64,000 nt of DNA from a bacterium (GTDB lineage Bacteria; CAIWAD01). The position numbers were made by a program, and so were the translations under genes. Of the stretch, positions 38,150 through 48,966 are shown piece after piece. The stretch lies in the NCBI GenBank assembly GCA_030685015.1, contig JAUXWS010000100.1, forward strand, positions 1 through 64,000, given 5' to 3'. Position 1 is the stretch's first letter, and each line of letters starts with the position of its first letter. The notes beneath the pieces were generated by a model that saw only the letters and a program-made list of their open reading frames with translations, made no database searches and was not told the DNA's origin.

Positions 38150-39397
38150 TCACTTGTCCTGCAGGATTCGGAAAGTCAATTCCGCCCCGGCCAGCGCCGA
38201 CTCCATGGATTGTGGGAGGCCGGTGTCCAGCCAGGCACCGCTCCACCACACGTTGACCAACGAGCTGCGAGGACCCGGGCGAGCAGCCTCGAAGGCCGGC
38301 GTGGGCATGGGCGTGGCATGTCGCTGCACCACCCAGCGCCCCCCTCCCAGGGAATCAAAGCCATGACTGGCTAGAAGCTCCGGCACGAGTTGCTCCATCC
38401 TCGCCCGATGGGCGAGATCCTCGTCCGTCCAACCACTGCCCACCAGCACCACCTCTCCTCCGGGACCAGGGAAGATCCACTGAAAGGGCCGGCCGAACCA
38501 ACCCATCAGGCCGCCCGAGGCAAAGCGTCCCCGCGCCGCCAGCCTGAAGTTGACGATGTGGCGCCCTTCGCTGCGCGGAGGCATGGCCGGGGCCACGTCG
38601 GCCAGACCATCCACTGTGCGAAGTCCGTCGGGCGGTCCCGCCCACACGAAGTGGTCAGCCTCCACCCGGTGTCCGGGTCCAACAAAGGCGAGGACGCGAT
38701 GTGCATCCCGCACCACGGCACGCAGCGGACAGCCCGTCAGCAGGCGTACGCCCTGCTCGTCCAGCCGACGGCGGAATGGTCCAATCCAAAGCTCCTCCAG
38801 CGTATGGGCGGCGGCAAAGGGGCGTTGAAGGCGTGGGTTGGCGAAGAGCAGGCGCATCGTGCGCAGGAAGAGCGCCCCATCCACCAGCTCCGTCGGCGCA
38901 TTGAAAATGCTGAGCGCCCACTCGCGCCAGAAGCGCTCGGCGCCGCCCCCCGCCCGGACCCCACTGCGGGCAAGGACTTGTGCCGCTCTCTCGCCAGGTC
39001 GGGCCTGATGTCCCATCAGCAGGGCCAGGTTGCCGAGCAGGCCCAGTGTCCGACCAATCCCCAGCGAACGGGCCGCCGCCGGCATGACGCGCAGGGGAGC
39101 CCCCATGGGCAAGCGCAAACGCCTGTGTCCATCCTGGACCACGGCCCAGGGATCCAACTCCACCAGCAGATGGCGGGAGCCAAGTTCTTCCAGCCGGGCC
39201 AAGCAGCGTGAACAGGCCGCCAACATGAGGTGGACACTGTTGTCAACACCTCCGGGCATCGTGTGGACGGCCCCACCCAGCCCGGCCCGCCGCTCCATCA
39301 GGGCGACGCGCCGGCCAGCCCGCGCCAGGTCAAGCGCCAGACTCATGCCGGCCAACCCGCCGCCGGCAATGGCCACATCTGTCCGAATGCTTGTCAT
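38150..39397 (-). CDS. hpnE: Hydroxysqualene dehydroxylase HpnE
   Basis: A 415-residue FAD-dependent enzyme of the amine-oxidase/desaturase group. The dinucleotide-binding motif is VAIAGGGLAGMSLALDLARAG (8-28), followed by ALMERRAGLGGAVHTMPGGVDNSVH, and a C-terminal FAD contact near SSLVNVWWSGAWLDTGLPQSMESAL. With HpnC and HpnD it makes squalene from farnesyl diphosphate by the bacterial three-enzyme route, reducing hydroxysqualene. Its ATG overlaps the hpnD stop as ATGA. Confidence 0.88.
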   Translation of the reverse strand: MTSIRTDVAIAGGGLAGMSLALDLARAGRRVALMERRAGLGGAVHTMPGGVDNSVHLMLAACSRCLARLEELGSRHLLVELDPWAVVQDGHRRLRLPMGAPLRVMPAAARSLGIGRTLGLLGNLALLMGHQARPGERAAQVLARSGVRAGGGAERFWREWALSIFNAPTELVDGALFLRTMRLLFANPRLQRPFAAAHTLEELWIGPFRRRLDEQGVRLLTGCPLRAVVRDAHRVLAFVGPGHRVEADHFVWAGPPDGLRTVDGLADVAPAMPPRSEGRHIVNFRLAARGRFASGGLMGWFGRPFQWIFPGPGGEVVLVGSGWTDEDLAHRARMEQLVPELLASHGFDSLGGGRWVVQRHATPMPTPAFEAARPGPRSSLVNVWWSGAWLDTGLPQSMESALAGAELTFRILQDK

Positions 39398-40287
39398 GAG
39401 AGGATGATCTTGATGGCTATCACCATCTTTCGCCAGATGGGATAGCCCACCTTGCCCAGAAAGGGATTGTAGGCGCGCCGGGCCAGCTCCCCCAGGATCG
39501 GGCGGTAGAGTCCGGCCATGACCAGGGCCGGCTTCAGCAAGTTCCGTTCGTTCCGGGGCAGATGAGACATGGCCTCCTCATAGCGGGCCTCCGCCGCCAC
39601 GCACAATTCGCGCAGGAGGTCCCGCACCGCCTGCCCGTCCCGCTCCGCCAGGATATCCTCCCGCCGCAGTCCGTGGCGGGAGAGAAGATCCTCCGGCAAG
39701 TAGACCCGGCCGTCGCGGGCGTCCTCGCGCACATCCCGCGCGATGTTCGTCAACTGCATGGCCAGTCCCAGACGATCGGCAAACAGCCTGGCCTGAGGCT
39801 CCCGGCTGCCCAGGATGCCGATGACCATCCGCCCGACAGTGGAGGCGACATGCCAGCAGTAGTTCTCCAGCTCGTCCATGTTGGCATAGGAGCGCCGTTC
39901 CAGGTCCATTTCCAACCCATCGAGCAAGGATCGGAACAAGTCCAGCGGGAGGGGCCGACGTTGCAGGCTGTCCAGCAGGGCGAGGAGAATGGGATCGGTG
40001 GGGAGATCCCGGCGAGAGCCGGCGAGCAAGCCCTCCAGCCAGTCCAGCTCAGCCCGCCTTTCCGCCAGCCGGAGCCGCTTCTCGGCCGCATCCGGCTCGA
40101 GGTCCATCAACTGGTCCGCCTTCTGACAGAATGCGTAGACGGCATGGATGGCCCGCCGCTGTTCCTTGCGCATGAACCGGAATGCGTAGTAGAAGTGCCG
40201 GGCATTGACCTTCGCGAACAGAGTGCAGAAGGCATGGGCTTGGCGCAGGCGGGCGGGCGGCAGCTCGGATGCAGGGGCACTGGTCAT
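39394..40287 (-). CDS. hpnD: Presqualene diphosphate synthase HpnD
   Basis: A 297-residue head-to-head prenyl synthase. It has both Asp-rich substrate-Mg sites in the family positions: the first region reads FCQKADQLMD and the second MQLTNIARDVREDARDGRVYLP. It joins two farnesyl diphosphates into presqualene diphosphate. The ATG at 40287 follows AGGAG by ten bases. It is coupled to hpnE and lies 70 bp after hpnC. Confidence 0.9.
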   Translation of the reverse strand: MTSAPASELPPARLRQAHAFCTLFAKVNARHFYYAFRFMRKEQRRAIHAVYAFCQKADQLMDLEPDAAEKRLRLAERRAELDWLEGLLAGSRRDLPTDPILLALLDSLQRRPLPLDLFRSLLDGLEMDLERRSYANMDELENYCWHVASTVGRMVIGILGSREPQARLFADRLGLAMQLTNIARDVREDARDGRVYLPEDLLSRHGLRREDILAERDGQAVRDLLRELCVAAEARYEEAMSHLPRNERNLLKPALVMAGLYRPILGELARRAYNPFLGKVGYPIWRKMVIAIKIILS

Positions 40288-40357
40288 GGGCGCGTCTCTC
40301 CTGCTTCGGGCAGGGTCTGGGCCATCGCCGCCGCCCGGCCGGCCACAAGATGGCGCT

Positions 40358-41302
40358 TCAGTACGGACGCAGGGCAACAAGAGCGACGCGAAACTTGATC
40401 AGCGCCCCCAGCACGGGCCGGCGGGTCAGCACCGCGGGGCCAAGGGCCTCTGTGCGCGCCACGATGGCGAGCCCGCCGCCGGCGTACAGACGCACGTCCA
40501 GGGAGAAGCGCCAGGGCAGCCTTGGGGCAAGCTGATCCACGGCGGACAGCTGCTCGCGGGCCCAGGCCGCCAAGTCTTGCAGCAAGGGCGCTGCCTTGAC
40601 GCCCGCCTGTTGCAAGGCCAGGGGATCTGTCGGCAGGCCATGGGCGGCCAGCCGCCGCCGTGGTACGTAGAGTCGGCCGGAGGGAAGATCCCGCGACAGG
40701 TCCTGCCAGAAATTGGCCAGCTGCAGCCCGGCGCAAACCCGGTCCGAGAGATCCGCGATCTGCGACCAGTCTGGCCTTTGCTCATTCAGGCCGTTGAGCG
40801 CCAGCAAGAGGCGCCCGACGGGAGCCGCGCTGCGCCGGCAGTAGGCCAAGACAGCGTCGTCGTCGGGGAAATCAGGCGGCTCCTGGTCCAGCAGAAAAGC
40901 GTCCAGCAGCTGTCGACACTCGTCAATCGGCAAGGCGTGGCGGGCGGCATCCTCGGCCAGCGCCATAAGGATTGGATGGCGTCCGGCCGTGGCGGGCAGA
41001 CCGTCCAGCAAAGTGGACCAGTGTCTCAAACGTTGGCGTCTCAGCTCCGCCAGGCTCAGTCCGGTCCTGGCCACGTGGGCGGCCAGGCCGTCCTCCTCGT
41101 CGGCCAGATCGTCGGAAAAGCGGGCGAAGGCGTAGATGCTGCGCATGGGAGGCTTCAATCGGGGCGGCAGCAGGATGGAGGCCATGCTGAAGTTCTCATA
41201 GTGCGCGCAGATGCGGCGCACTTCTGCCCGGGCCATGGCCGGGGATGAGCAACCAGGCTCCAGCTCGGCCAGATGGAGCGGTTGGGGAAAGGATACGTCC
41301 AT
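40358..41302 (-). CDS. hpnC: Hydroxysqualene synthase HpnC
   Basis: A 314-residue head-to-head prenyl synthase with the two Asp-rich motifs FARFSDDLADEEDG and LANFWQDLSRDLPSGRLYVP. HpnC converts presqualene diphosphate to hydroxysqualene. Gene order hpnC, hpnD, hpnE is the standard squalene cassette. No squalene-hopene cyclase lies in the window, so hopanoids or carotenoid-like products both remain possible. No ribosome site precedes the ATG at 41302, so the start is the least certain part. Confidence 0.88.
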   Translation of the reverse strand: MDVSFPQPLHLAELEPGCSSPAMARAEVRRICAHYENFSMASILLPPRLKPPMRSIYAFARFSDDLADEEDGLAAHVARTGLSLAELRRQRLRHWSTLLDGLPATAGRHPILMALAEDAARHALPIDECRQLLDAFLLDQEPPDFPDDDAVLAYCRRSAAPVGRLLLALNGLNEQRPDWSQIADLSDRVCAGLQLANFWQDLSRDLPSGRLYVPRRRLAAHGLPTDPLALQQAGVKAAPLLQDLAAWAREQLSAVDQLAPRLPWRFSLDVRLYAGGGLAIVARTEALGPAVLTRRPVLGALIKFRVALVALRPY

Positions 41303-44665: not shown

Positions 44666-45715
44666 TCACGAGCTCATGTTGCTTGTAACTCCAGACCCAT
44701 TCATCGCCGTCGTGCCCACTCGGACATAGATGCCCATCTGAAGCCCCGCCGTGACGGCAAACCACTCCCCGTCATCCACGACGCTCATGGTCGGCATGGA
44801 CGTGAAGGTTCTGAGCTTGACCTTGCCGGCGGAGGCGTTGAGGATCTTGCCAGTGGGAAGCGTGGCCGTGGAACCGGAGGCGGTCAGGATGCCGCCCGTG
44901 ACCCGGGTCAGACTGCTGACACTGTTGGCCAGTTGGGTCGCCCCCACGGCCGAGGCTGCAAGCTGGGTGGAGCCAACAGCCCCCACCGCCAGCTTGCCGC
45001 CCGTAATGGTCAGGTCGGCAATTGCAGCAGTGTCCACGGCGCCGGCATTGATCTTTCCGAGGGTTACAGCACCAGCTGCGATGTTATTGCTGACGACGCA
45101 ATTCTTGGCAAGCTGAACACTGGTAATTATGTCCAGCAGGGCCAGGGCGCCCCGGTTCTTGATCCCCGCGCTGGACAGATCAACGTATCCTGCGGACAGA
45201 GCAATGTTGAGGACGCGGCCGTAAATGGTCCCGTTCGGGACATCGTCCAAGGTGCTGTGCTCGGTCAGGGAGCTGGGCGTCCAAGCCGGAAGCGCATCCC
45301 CTGGGGCCGCCTGCACGGCGTCGACGTAGCCGATGCCCTCTCCAGTCTCGATATCATTCACCACGCCAAACCGCAGTGTCAGGAAGCGCGTGCCAACCGG
45401 CATATCCACGCGTTTCACCTGGTGAATGAACTGGATGAAGCCTGCTTCGTCCTGGGCAAGCGTCCCCCAGACCACGGGCCCACCCAGATCCACCTTCGCT
45501 GCGTCCAGGAAATGCACCTCGGCCTTCACGCTGGAGGCACCCACCAGGCCGCTGGCAGAGAGCCAACACGACAGCATGACGCCGCCCACGAAGCCGTCCA
45601 CGTCGATGGCGTTGGAGGCCCCGCTCCACATGTCGGCGCCCACAGCTTCGATGCGCATGCAGTAGGTGCCCAGATAGAAGCGCTCAGTCGTGCGCGTGAC
45701 GGTTCCCACTGGCAT
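44666..45715 (-). CDS. Tail-fibre protein, distal segment
   Basis: A 349-residue protein. Residues 1-~150 form an N-terminally truncated carbohydrate-binding-like beta-sandwich (TERFYLGTYCMRIEA, FVGGVMLSCWLSASG, GEGIGYVDAVQAAPGDALPAWTP), then a short stretch of the A-V-x-x-x-x-L-A fibre repeat and a C-terminal tip. Its first strand is missing; the expected N-L-x-x-N-G-S-F-E element is at the end of the upstream gene. The ATG overlaps that stop as TAATG, in the -1 frame. It is a plausible receptor-binding tip. Confidence 0.75.
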   Translation of the reverse strand: MPVGTVTRTTERFYLGTYCMRIEAVGADMWSGASNAIDVDGFVGGVMLSCWLSASGLVGASSVKAEVHFLDAAKVDLGGPVVWGTLAQDEAGFIQFIHQVKRVDMPVGTRFLTLRFGVVNDIETGEGIGYVDAVQAAPGDALPAWTPSSLTEHSTLDDVPNGTIYGRVLNIALSAGYVDLSSAGIKNRGALALLDIITSVQLAKNCVVSNNIAAGAVTLGKINAGAVDTAAIADLTITGGKLAVGAVGSTQLAASAVGATQLANSVSSLTRVTGGILTASGSTATLPTGKILNASAGKVKLRTFTSMPTMSVVDDGEWFAVTAGLQMGIYVRVGTTAMNGSGVTSNMSS

Positions 45716-48342
45716 TAGACCCAGACCCCCGTCTCGAAGGAGCCATTGACGACCAGGTTGACCGTGCTGAGCTCCGAGAAGACGCCGGCGTCCACCTTAT
45801 CGCGCGTGACAGACCCAGTGGCCAGCTTGGCCGCGGTCACCGCTCCTGTCGCCAGTTGAGTGGTCCCAATGGCGCTGGCCGCCACGTGGCTGGCGCCGAC
45901 CGCGCTGGCGGCGAGCTTCGTGCCCGACACCGCGCTGTCCGCCAGCCTGTCGGTGGACACAGCCCCGGCCGCAATCTTGGCTGTCGCCACCGCGCCATCA
46001 ATGAGCTGGGACTGCCCCACCGCCGCGCTGCCGATCTTGGTCTGGGTGACCGCCGCATCCGCCAGCTTGGTCGTGCCCACCGACGCGTCGGCCAGGGCGC
46101 TCGATCCCACCGCCAGGGCGCCCAGCTTGGACGAGGTCACCGCCCCATCCCCCAGCTTGGCGTTCGTGACAGCGCTGGCGCCCAGCTCGGTGGAGCCCAC
46201 GACCCCGGCGGCGATCTTGCCACTGGTGACCGCGCCCGTGGCGATCTTGCTGGAGCCCACGGCGCCGTCGACGATCTTGGCCGAGTACACCGAGCCATCG
46301 GCGATCTTGGTGCTGGTCACCGCGCCGTCGGCCAGCTTGTTGCCGGTCACCGCCGCATCCTGCAGGGCACCCTCGCTCACCTTGACGGCGCCGATGAGGC
46401 CCCCAGCCGTCACGACGGTGGATCCGTCCGCCAAGTGGATCAGGGGTGTGCCGCTGCCCAGGGCAATGGACCCATCCGCCTGGCGCTGCAGGGCGTTGGA
46501 CGTCATCTTGCCCAGGGACGCCGTGTCAGCCGCGAGGAGCGTGTTGGTCACGGCATTGGTGGCGACCTTGGCCGTGGAGACGGCCGCGTCGGCGATCTTG
46601 GGCGTGGACACGGCGCTGTTGGCAATCTTGGCGTTGGTGACCGCCGCGTTGTCCAGCTTGGTCTCCGTCACCGCGCCGGCCACCAGTTTCGCATCGGTGA
46701 CCGAGGCCGTTCCCAACTGGGTGGTGCCCACGGCGCCCGTGGCAATCTGCGTCGTGCCCACCGCCGCTGCGGCAATCTTGGACGAAGACACCGCCCCGTC
46801 CGTGATCGACGCCTGGACCACCTTGGACGGCGCGATCTTGCCAGACGAGTCCGTCAGCTCGATGAGCTTGCGGCCTGCCACGATGGGCGTGTTCCAGTCG
46901 TCCGTGCCCTTCAGATCCTTGATCGTGCCCGTGATGTTCGGATCCGCCTCGCCCGAGACGACGGCCTTCTTCACCAGGGCATTGCGCCCCAGCGTACCGA
47001 TGGTGTTGCGCTTGCTGTAGAGCAGGTCAAAGTGGGTGACCGTCCCCACGGGCAGGGCCGAGAGGGTGACGAAGACCGTGGAGAGAGGCACGGCGCCGCC
47101 GTCGTTCAGCCACCAGCCCGCGCCCAAGCCCGACCCGGTCTGCGCATCCCCTGGGGTGATGATGGATGTGCCGTTTTGGTTGAGGCACATGGCCGTGACC
47201 GTGACCGGGTTGCCGCCCGTGTCCAGCAGGTCGCCGCCCGCCGCGTTGAGCAGGTCGAACAGGCCGAGTAGCGAATCGCCCGTCTCGCCGATGTTGACGG
47301 CCGCGCCGGCCGCCTGGTAGGCCAGACGGTAGGTATAGACGCCGCCGCCGGCGCTATAGATGCTGCCCACCGGCACATTGCTGTCCTCGTAGGGCTCGGC
47401 GATGGCCCGGGCGTGCAAGGCCGCGGCGTTGCGCACGTTCGTGTCCAGCACCGCCCCATCCGAGGTCCTCAGCTCGGCCGTGACCTGGCCGCTTGCCGCA
47501 CTGATCAACGTGCGAATGCCGCCCGGCGCCCCCGCGTCCTCCTGGACGACGTCGCCCTTCACCTTGCCATCGGATCGCAGCGCCGCCAGCTTGCCCTGGG
47601 AGGCCGCGTCCAGCTTGGTCTCGGGCAGGATGCCGTCGCCAATCAGGGACGCCAGGTCGATGCGGGCCAGGTTGGTGTTGGGCAGCTCGCCCGTCACCTT
47701 CGTGCCCAGGTTGACGGCTCCGTCGGCGATCTTCGTCGTCCCGACCGCGCCATCAGCCAGCTTGGGCTGCTGCACGGCCCCGTCCTGAATGGACCCGGGC
47801 GTGATCGTGCCGTCCAGGCTTACTTCCTTGACGCGCTTGAAGATCGTGCCGTCGGAGACCAGGTCCAGCGAGTCCTGCTCCTTCAGGCCGTAGGGCGTCC
47901 AGTGGGTGGGGTAGGAGCCCTGCTCGGCCTTGACGGCGTCCACGTAGGCCGTGCCGCTGGCCGTCGCGCCATCCCAGCCAAAGGACAGCTTGATGAAGAC
48001 CGTGCCCAGGGGCAGCTCGCCGGCGTTGCCCAGCAGAGCCATGTCGAAGCTGCGCCAGTAGCGCGTGAACTGCGTCTCGCCCGACTGGGTCAGGACGGTC
48101 CAGTCAATGGGGAGCATGGCGATGCCGTCGGCGTAGTAGGGCGTCACCCGGGCGTAAAAGGTGCCGGCATTCCGCAGGTGCATGCGGATGTAAGTCGAGA
48201 TGCAGACCTTCGACAGGCCGCGCAGGTCGATGAAGTTGACGCTGGCCAGGCTCGTGGAGCACGGGCCTCCCTCGGCCGTGATCTTCATCGAGTAGCCGCC
48301 AAAGACCGAGCAATCCGAAGACCGTGTGACAGGGGTCGACAT
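45715..48342 (-). CDS. Long tail-fibre protein with tandem shaft repeats
   Basis: An 875-residue protein. It starts with an N-terminally truncated beta-sandwich (about 1-160, ending GTAYVDAVKAEQG), followed by fibre repeats such as IADGAVNLG, then a globular insert (about 290-500), then a shaft of about thirty repeats with the pattern AVT/G-x-x-K/Q-L/I-A/G-x-G/S (about 515-850). It ends NLVVNGSFETGVWV, the first strand of another such sandwich. Repeats of this type form trimeric beta shafts in phage fibres. The ATG follows a strong AGGAGG. Confidence 0.82.
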   Translation of the reverse strand: MSTPVTRSSDCSVFGGYSMKITAEGGPCSTSLASVNFIDLRGLSKVCISTYIRMHLRNAGTFYARVTPYYADGIAMLPIDWTVLTQSGETQFTRYWRSFDMALLGNAGELPLGTVFIKLSFGWDGATASGTAYVDAVKAEQGSYPTHWTPYGLKEQDSLDLVSDGTIFKRVKEVSLDGTITPGSIQDGAVQQPKLADGAVGTTKIADGAVNLGTKVTGELPNTNLARIDLASLIGDGILPETKLDAASQGKLAALRSDGKVKGDVVQEDAGAPGGIRTLISAASGQVTAELRTSDGAVLDTNVRNAAALHARAIAEPYEDSNVPVGSIYSAGGGVYTYRLAYQAAGAAVNIGETGDSLLGLFDLLNAAGGDLLDTGGNPVTVTAMCLNQNGTSIITPGDAQTGSGLGAGWWLNDGGAVPLSTVFVTLSALPVGTVTHFDLLYSKRNTIGTLGRNALVKKAVVSGEADPNITGTIKDLKGTDDWNTPIVAGRKLIELTDSSGKIAPSKVVQASITDGAVSSSKIAAAAVGTTQIATGAVGTTQLGTASVTDAKLVAGAVTETKLDNAAVTNAKIANSAVSTPKIADAAVSTAKVATNAVTNTLLAADTASLGKMTSNALQRQADGSIALGSGTPLIHLADGSTVVTAGGLIGAVKVSEGALQDAAVTGNKLADGAVTSTKIADGSVYSAKIVDGAVGSSKIATGAVTSGKIAAGVVGSTELGASAVTNAKLGDGAVTSSKLGALAVGSSALADASVGTTKLADAAVTQTKIGSAAVGQSQLIDGAVATAKIAAGAVSTDRLADSAVSGTKLAASAVGASHVAASAIGTTQLATGAVTAAKLATGSVTRDKVDAGVFSELSTVNLVVNGSFETGVWV

Positions 48343-48351
48343 TTGATCCTC

Positions 48352-48966
48352 CTACCAGGCTATTTCCTCAAAAGACCCACCGCGCTGCAGGTTGGTCGCG
48401 CCGACACCCGCAACCTCCCCCGTCGTGGCGCTTCGCGGGCGGCTGTAACCGCTGAAGCGCCCTTCAATCGTTTCCTGCCGCACGCGGAAGGCGTAGGGGG
48501 TCGCGGGCAAGAGATCCGCAACCGTAAGCCAGAGGGCGCGTCGATCGCGCGTCTCCGCCACGTCCGTCCAGACCGAACTTGCCTCTGCGCGGGCCTGCGC
48601 CACCAGGCGCTCTCCGGCAAAGCCATCCGCCGGATGCACCCACACCAGGTCCACGACCACCCCTGATGCCGTGGCGCTCATCAGCACCACCGGAGGCGGC
48701 ACCACGTGCTCCAGCCGCCGGCGAAAGGCCGCCCGGTCCCCCACGTCAAGGGAGAGCCGGGACTGCGCCACCAGCTTAAGCGGCCGGAACAAGAGGGCGT
48801 AGTTCGAATCGCGCAAGCCCGTCAGACTGAGCACGCCCGTCTTGGGGATGACGCCGGTCCGCACCAGAAGCCCGTGCCGCAGTCCGCCCCGGTCCACCTC
48901 GAAGAGGTTGTCCTGGAGGACATAAACGGCGCCGGCCGGCAGCCCGCTTTGCGTCATCACGGCCAT
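48352..48966 (-). CDS. Tail-fibre base or linker protein with FN3-like domain
   Basis: A 204-residue protein. The N-terminal half is beta-rich (GAVYVLQDNLFEVDRGG, GVLSLTGLRDSNYALLF). A fibronectin type III-like domain follows (LTVADLLPATPYAFRVRQE). The C-terminus is NLQRGGSFEEIAW, which looks like the first strand of the beta-sandwich that begins the next gene. The ATG overlaps the upstream stop as ATGA. The stop is TAG, and the next ATG is in the same frame four codons on. Confidence 0.7.
   Translation of the reverse strand: MAVMTQSGLPAGAVYVLQDNLFEVDRGGLRHGLLVRTGVIPKTGVLSLTGLRDSNYALLFRPLKLVAQSRLSLDVGDRAAFRRRLEHVVPPPVVLMSATASGVVVDLVWVHPADGFAGERLVAQARAEASSVWTDVAETRDRRALWLTVADLLPATPYAFRVRQETIEGRFSGYSRPRSATTGEVAGVGATNLQRGGSFEEIAW

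Follow-up and report, generated by a model that had tools for sequence, protein, structure and literature searches.

The window, i.e. the whole 64,000-nt stretch of DNA analysed here, carries part of a prophage with a contractile tail, whose tape measure, sheath, gp25-like and J-like baseplate proteins are encoded within the window and whose portal, minor head and large terminase genes lie directly past the window end. Immediately outside the window, the head and tail genes of the prophage are separated by a DNA methyltransferase gene (L014:998-3583; phrog_27806, E 1.8e-136). A 1498-residue protein (L014:4471-8967) exhibits a minor-head/head-morphogenesis domain at about residues 100-330 only, a further 1100+ residues lying outside it. 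Genes adjoining the prophage on the minus strand (38150-41302 of the window) resemble, as judged by eye, a squalene/hopanoid synthesis cluster. The tail operon, also on the minus strand, ends with a 709-residue protein followed by three ORFs, referred to here as A, B and C. Protein A (48352-48966, minus strand, 204 residues) comprises an N-terminal part, a weak FN3-like region (E 0.014 only, under the Pfam cut-off), and a C-terminal peptide termed donor strand 1 (NLQRGGSFEEIAW, 48355-48393, minus strand). Protein B (45715-48342, minus strand, 875 residues) is a tail fibre with PHROG tail-fibre repeats (phrog_892, E 3e-61). It starts with a domain that we call the acceptor (47848-48342, minus strand), a CBM_4_9/CBM16-like β-sandwich devoid of strand 1 according to AF2, Foldseek and hhalign, continues with GAVTxxKIA-type repeats, and ends with donor strand 2 (NLVVNGSFETGVWV, 45718-45759, minus strand). 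Two long antisense ORFs facing B (471 and 386 residues; 45856-47271, plus strand) are likely artefactual, owing to the GC-rich repeats of B. The ensuing protein C (44666-45715, minus strand, 349 residues), a fibre or tip protein, comprises its own acceptor domain (45245-45715, minus strand), a short region of the same type of repeats, across which weak tail-fibre PHROG matches are reported, and a C-terminal tip.

At the A/B junction (48340-48354, minus strand), the stop codon TAG lies within an AGGAGG Shine-Dalgarno sequence and the ATG of B is found 9 nt past the stop; the C-terminal end of A reads TNLQRGGSFEEIAW, followed by the stop, then TAGGAGGATCAAATG, then B. At the B/C junction (45713-45717, minus strand), the C-terminal end of B reads STVNLVVNGSFETGVWV before a stop that overlaps the start of C in TAATG, and the ATG of C is in frame -1 (equivalent to +2) relative to B. 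The original prediction, that B ends at a strand-1 peptide and that C opens in the -1 frame at the overlapping TAATG, is thus confirmed on the sequence. It had also proposed that both boundaries cut one domain type at one structural position, and alignment bears this out on both sides of the cut: the N-terminal domains of B and C are homologous (34% identity, E 2.1e-8), while A and B end with peptides that have in common the motif N-L-x-x-x-G-S-F-E-x-x-x-W, the NL, GSFE and W being identical between the donors of both joints. Aligning eight acceptor domains yields 35 invariant columns. Furthermore, B and C both carry a post-domain linker, WTP..L.E..(S/T)LD.V.(D/N)GT.(Y/F).RV. Because their homology extends past the acceptor into this linker, the acceptor and linker of B and C are probably duplication products of one split unit, and the two junctions therefore do not count as independent evidence.

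The residue at which each cut falls is shared by four prophage copies, which come from three genomes: the window, a second related copy in the same genome (contig 87), and one copy in each of two other species of the genus. All four copies hence belong to one genus. The related prophage of contig 87 possesses an A-B-C fibre operon (L009:7141-13515) whose B and C are 82% and 62% identical, respectively, to those of the window. Across the four copies, identity amounts to 72-87% for A, 78-89% for B, and 56-77% for C; B is exactly 875 residues long in the three complete copies, and the C homologues of the other copies comprise 328-340 residues. In all four, A ends with TNLQRGGSFExxAW, followed by the TAG within AGGAGG and the ATG of B, and B ends with NL(V/I)(V/I)NGSFETxxW(V/I), the B/C overlap being TAATG in three copies and TGATG in one. 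Homologous fibres are thus broken at identical rather than random positions, and the earlier conclusion that the cuts are not chance damage holds. Single breaks of such fibres are known elsewhere, an example being the viral contig L256 discussed below; nevertheless, chance damage or an assembly or sequencing error is barely credible for the same breaks in four copies and three genomes, two of them being public records from unrelated sampling projects. Damage, pseudogene formation and assembly error were rejected on the conservation of the cuts in the four copies and on the origin of the homologous contigs in separate public metagenome projects.

A further explanation is recoding, by which read-through or programmed frameshifting would turn a fraction of the products into covalent A-B or B-C fusions with a whole domain. 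In the window, the TAG of the A/B junction shares the frame of B, as this would require, but the other three copies read TAGGAGGAATCATG and are out of frame. Read-through is therefore not a conserved mechanism, and the contrast between an in-frame stop at one junction and a frame change at the other is incidental. The original prediction had taken these different means as an independent argument, which does not survive, given the in-frame stop restricted to the window and the probable duplication of B and C. In addition, the start of B is preceded by a perfect AGGAGG, and the B/C junction has no slippery heptamer, its pre-stop codons varying between copies (GTC, ATC, GTG). Recoding thus appears highly improbable, and frameshifting and read-through were rejected as mechanisms since there is no slippery site and the frame is not conserved.

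Regarding its distribution, the B/C junction pattern (donor motif followed by TRATG) was found only in the four homologous copies among 386 genomes of 327 genera, and is thus not a chance occurrence. To date, the split trait is known from a single genus, whose phylum is represented by five species in the collection. Searches of genome contigs returned relatives only in MAGs of the same genus; searches of viral contigs with domain and fused profiles did not return any relative of the split unit, and tblastn against phage and plasmid sequences did not return any useful one.

The identity of the divided domain was approached by structure prediction and by profile comparison. AF2 prediction of the A/B read-through with 11 aligned sequences reports a β-sandwich with a core pLDDT of about 60-86, for which the top Foldseek hit is a CBM16 module (2zey, E 9e-6), followed by CBM4 modules and phage fibre and tailspike proteins. 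With 18 aligned sequences, the core pLDDT is about 70-90, and Foldseek reports similar matches (2zey, E 1.3e-4). The acceptor fold is hence predicted, with moderate model confidence, to be of the CBM4/16 type. It also exhibits fold similarity with the central fibre protein gp20 of Mycobacteriophage Douge (PDB 8ZDP; TMq 0.54-0.57). Strand 1 of intact CBM_4_9 domains reads NL(I/L)xNG.FE...W, as does the donor peptide, and the strand-1 motif N-L-x-x-N-G-x-F-E...W sits in the donor peptide and is absent from the acceptor protein. The fused B/C sequence scores 12.3 bits (E 0.23) with PF02018, for a cut-off of 25.9, and the A/B sequence returns no hit; because the score is under the Pfam cut-off, we use the term CBM_4_9-like and do not assign the domain to PF02018. 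A sequence search of the PDB with the fused and unfused profiles did not return any hit. Judging from these comparisons, the split module is best described as a divergent CBM_4_9-like sandwich, of a predicted sugar-binding type.

The donors and acceptors match successive parts of this one domain. With hhalign, a profile of eight acceptors aligns with 44 non-redundant intact viral domains (E 1.6e-8) from template column 34 only, whereas donors plus acceptors cover columns 1-159 (E 1.1e-14); as the 44 templates were picked by the donor motif, the gain brought by the donor is partly circular, while the acceptor score is free of circularity. The C acceptor reaches an E-value of 5.9e-6 alone and of 2.6e-12 with its donor against the same intact domains. 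Of the controls, other stretches of the four proteins (the 709-residue one, A, B and C) do no better than E 0.16, and the highest score of a shuffled acceptor is 16.7, as compared with 51.9 for the real ones. A second template set comprised 15 Pfam CBM_4_9 domains picked independently of the motif; against it, the fused profile scores 34.4 (E 2.8e-5) and the unfused one 18.1 (E 0.022); the best donor shuffle reaches 27.5, and none of the 150 shuffles attains the fused score. Taken separately against these 15 domains, the B/C set is significant (7e-6) and the A/B set is not. The acceptor therefore lacks one strand of its fold, and the missing strand is found at the free C-terminus of the neighbouring protein, in four copies for each junction. 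The intact homologues L177-L179, from one unrelated genome, are of about equal length across the break.

A census of the strand-1 motif in IMG/VR returned 178 occurrences, 143 of them in closed frames, of which 137 run on for at least 100 residues, and none of these 137 long closed viral frames is cut at the motif. The remaining six comprise five short non-fibre frames and one broken fibre, L256. A loose pattern scan of IMG/VR reported 80 loci, nine of them in frame, with no real fibre end, and a tighter scan reported a single, unrelated locus. In L186, L237 and L239, GAVT-type repeats, an intact NLVANGSFE domain, and again GAVT-type repeats follow each other in one frame, an arrangement that, from its sequence layout, is the apparent un-split counterpart of B plus C. 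As for L256 (IMGVR_UViG_2609459960), its very long fibre frame breaks a few residues past the CBM strand-1 motif (L256:13274-13300), at a place where the near-identical L309 and L275 keep the frame; the break is likely a frameshift and illustrates genuine damage at a comparable position.

Both donors are under purifying selection, with a pN/pS of 0.16 over the last 14 codons of A, and of 0.28 for the donor of B; the region of A before its donor was left out of this use, as the length of A differs there by one residue. These values bear on two further explanations. In the first, the cut would be a relic of gene fission, the leftover strand 1 acting on its own protein as a trimer cap or folding tail, and the acceptor being stable without it. 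Two observations agree with such a relic: AF2 folds the acceptor confidently while leaving the donor unplaced, and the A/B donor has diverged (NLQRGGSFE). However, the CBM strand-1 signature NL..(N/G)GSFE...W is kept in eight of the eight junction copies under this selection, and the donor always stands beside an acceptor missing exactly that strand, which makes a relic unlikely. In the second, the boundary within the domain would stem from the exchange of fibre modules, and the split would have no structural role. The faster divergence of C relative to B across copies speaks for such a recombination border, yet partners are not seen to be swapped in any copy, each copy retains both halves, and the selection on the donor is left unexplained; we regard this origin as very unlikely. 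The original prediction had proposed either a functional joint or a recombination point for swapping fibre modules: the former is favoured, and the latter has gained no positive evidence.

In the favoured reading of a functional joint, A, B and C would be successive tail-fibre segments of the contractile-tailed prophage, probably held end to end by non-covalent, strand-complemented joints, each made of one split domain. The ancestral fibre would have been continuous, with repeats, an intact CBM_4_9-type β-sandwich, and repeats again, as in many phages, until a stop/start pair became fixed in the loop that follows strand 1. That strand would thereby have become the C-terminal donor tail of the upstream protein, and the other strands the N-terminal acceptor of the next one. 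Once the proteins have been translated from their adjoining or overlapping genes, B would have its acceptor completed by the donor of A, and C by that of B. This close gene arrangement would supply the partner chains in equal amounts, possibly coupling translation and assembly. If the fibres are trimeric, each joint would bring together three donors and as many acceptors. Our confidence in the joint is lowered because the donor is not placed in either of the two AF2 runs on the A/B read-through, which relied on shallow alignments (11 and 18 rows) and in which the acceptor is folded and the donor disordered (pLDDT about 26-36). The fuller description, in which the tail fibre consists of segments encoded by separate genes and strung into a chain where donor strands complement split CBM-type domains, twice in series, is one that we favour only slightly.

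In chaperone-usher pili, the terminal strand of one subunit completes the incomplete sandwich of its neighbour, by donor-strand complementation and exchange. The TasA fibres of Bacillus also assemble by donor-strand complementation and exchange (PMC9674648). As in pili and TasA, a terminal strand would here complete the incomplete sandwich of a neighbouring protein. In contrast with both, the donor is C-terminal rather than N-terminal, the chain would be heteromeric with a fixed order, the fold is of the CBM type, the structure is a phage fibre, and neither a chaperone nor an usher is seen. The likeness to the CBM_4_9 (PF02018)/CBM16 modules of phage fibres extends to the strand-1 motif, the colinear match, the predicted fold, and the repeat-domain-repeat layout; here, however, strand 1 is encoded by one gene and the rest of the domain by the next, and the score is under the Pfam cut-off. 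The likeness to Mycobacteriophage Douge lies in the presence of CBM-like domains in phage fibres that bind the host surface (PMC13033339). Its gp20 is a single-protein central fibre, for which no split domain is reported in the passages covered (PMC13033339), whereas the domain is split here. A search of the open-access literature did not return any donor-strand joint in phage tail fibres; the proposed joint would thus be of the kind found in pili and, within the literature searched, not previously described for phage fibres.

The end-to-end joining of multi-protein phage fibres is poorly known, and a strand-complemented joint would provide a simple and testable principle for it, as well as a definite site at which genes could split and modules be exchanged. 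The natural peptide/domain pair could be put to use for coupling proteins. For genome annotation, 'truncated' fibre genes of this type need not be pseudogenes. If the proposed mechanism is true, these phage tail fibres possess a snap-together joint that would, in principle, be able to add or exchange fibre segments.
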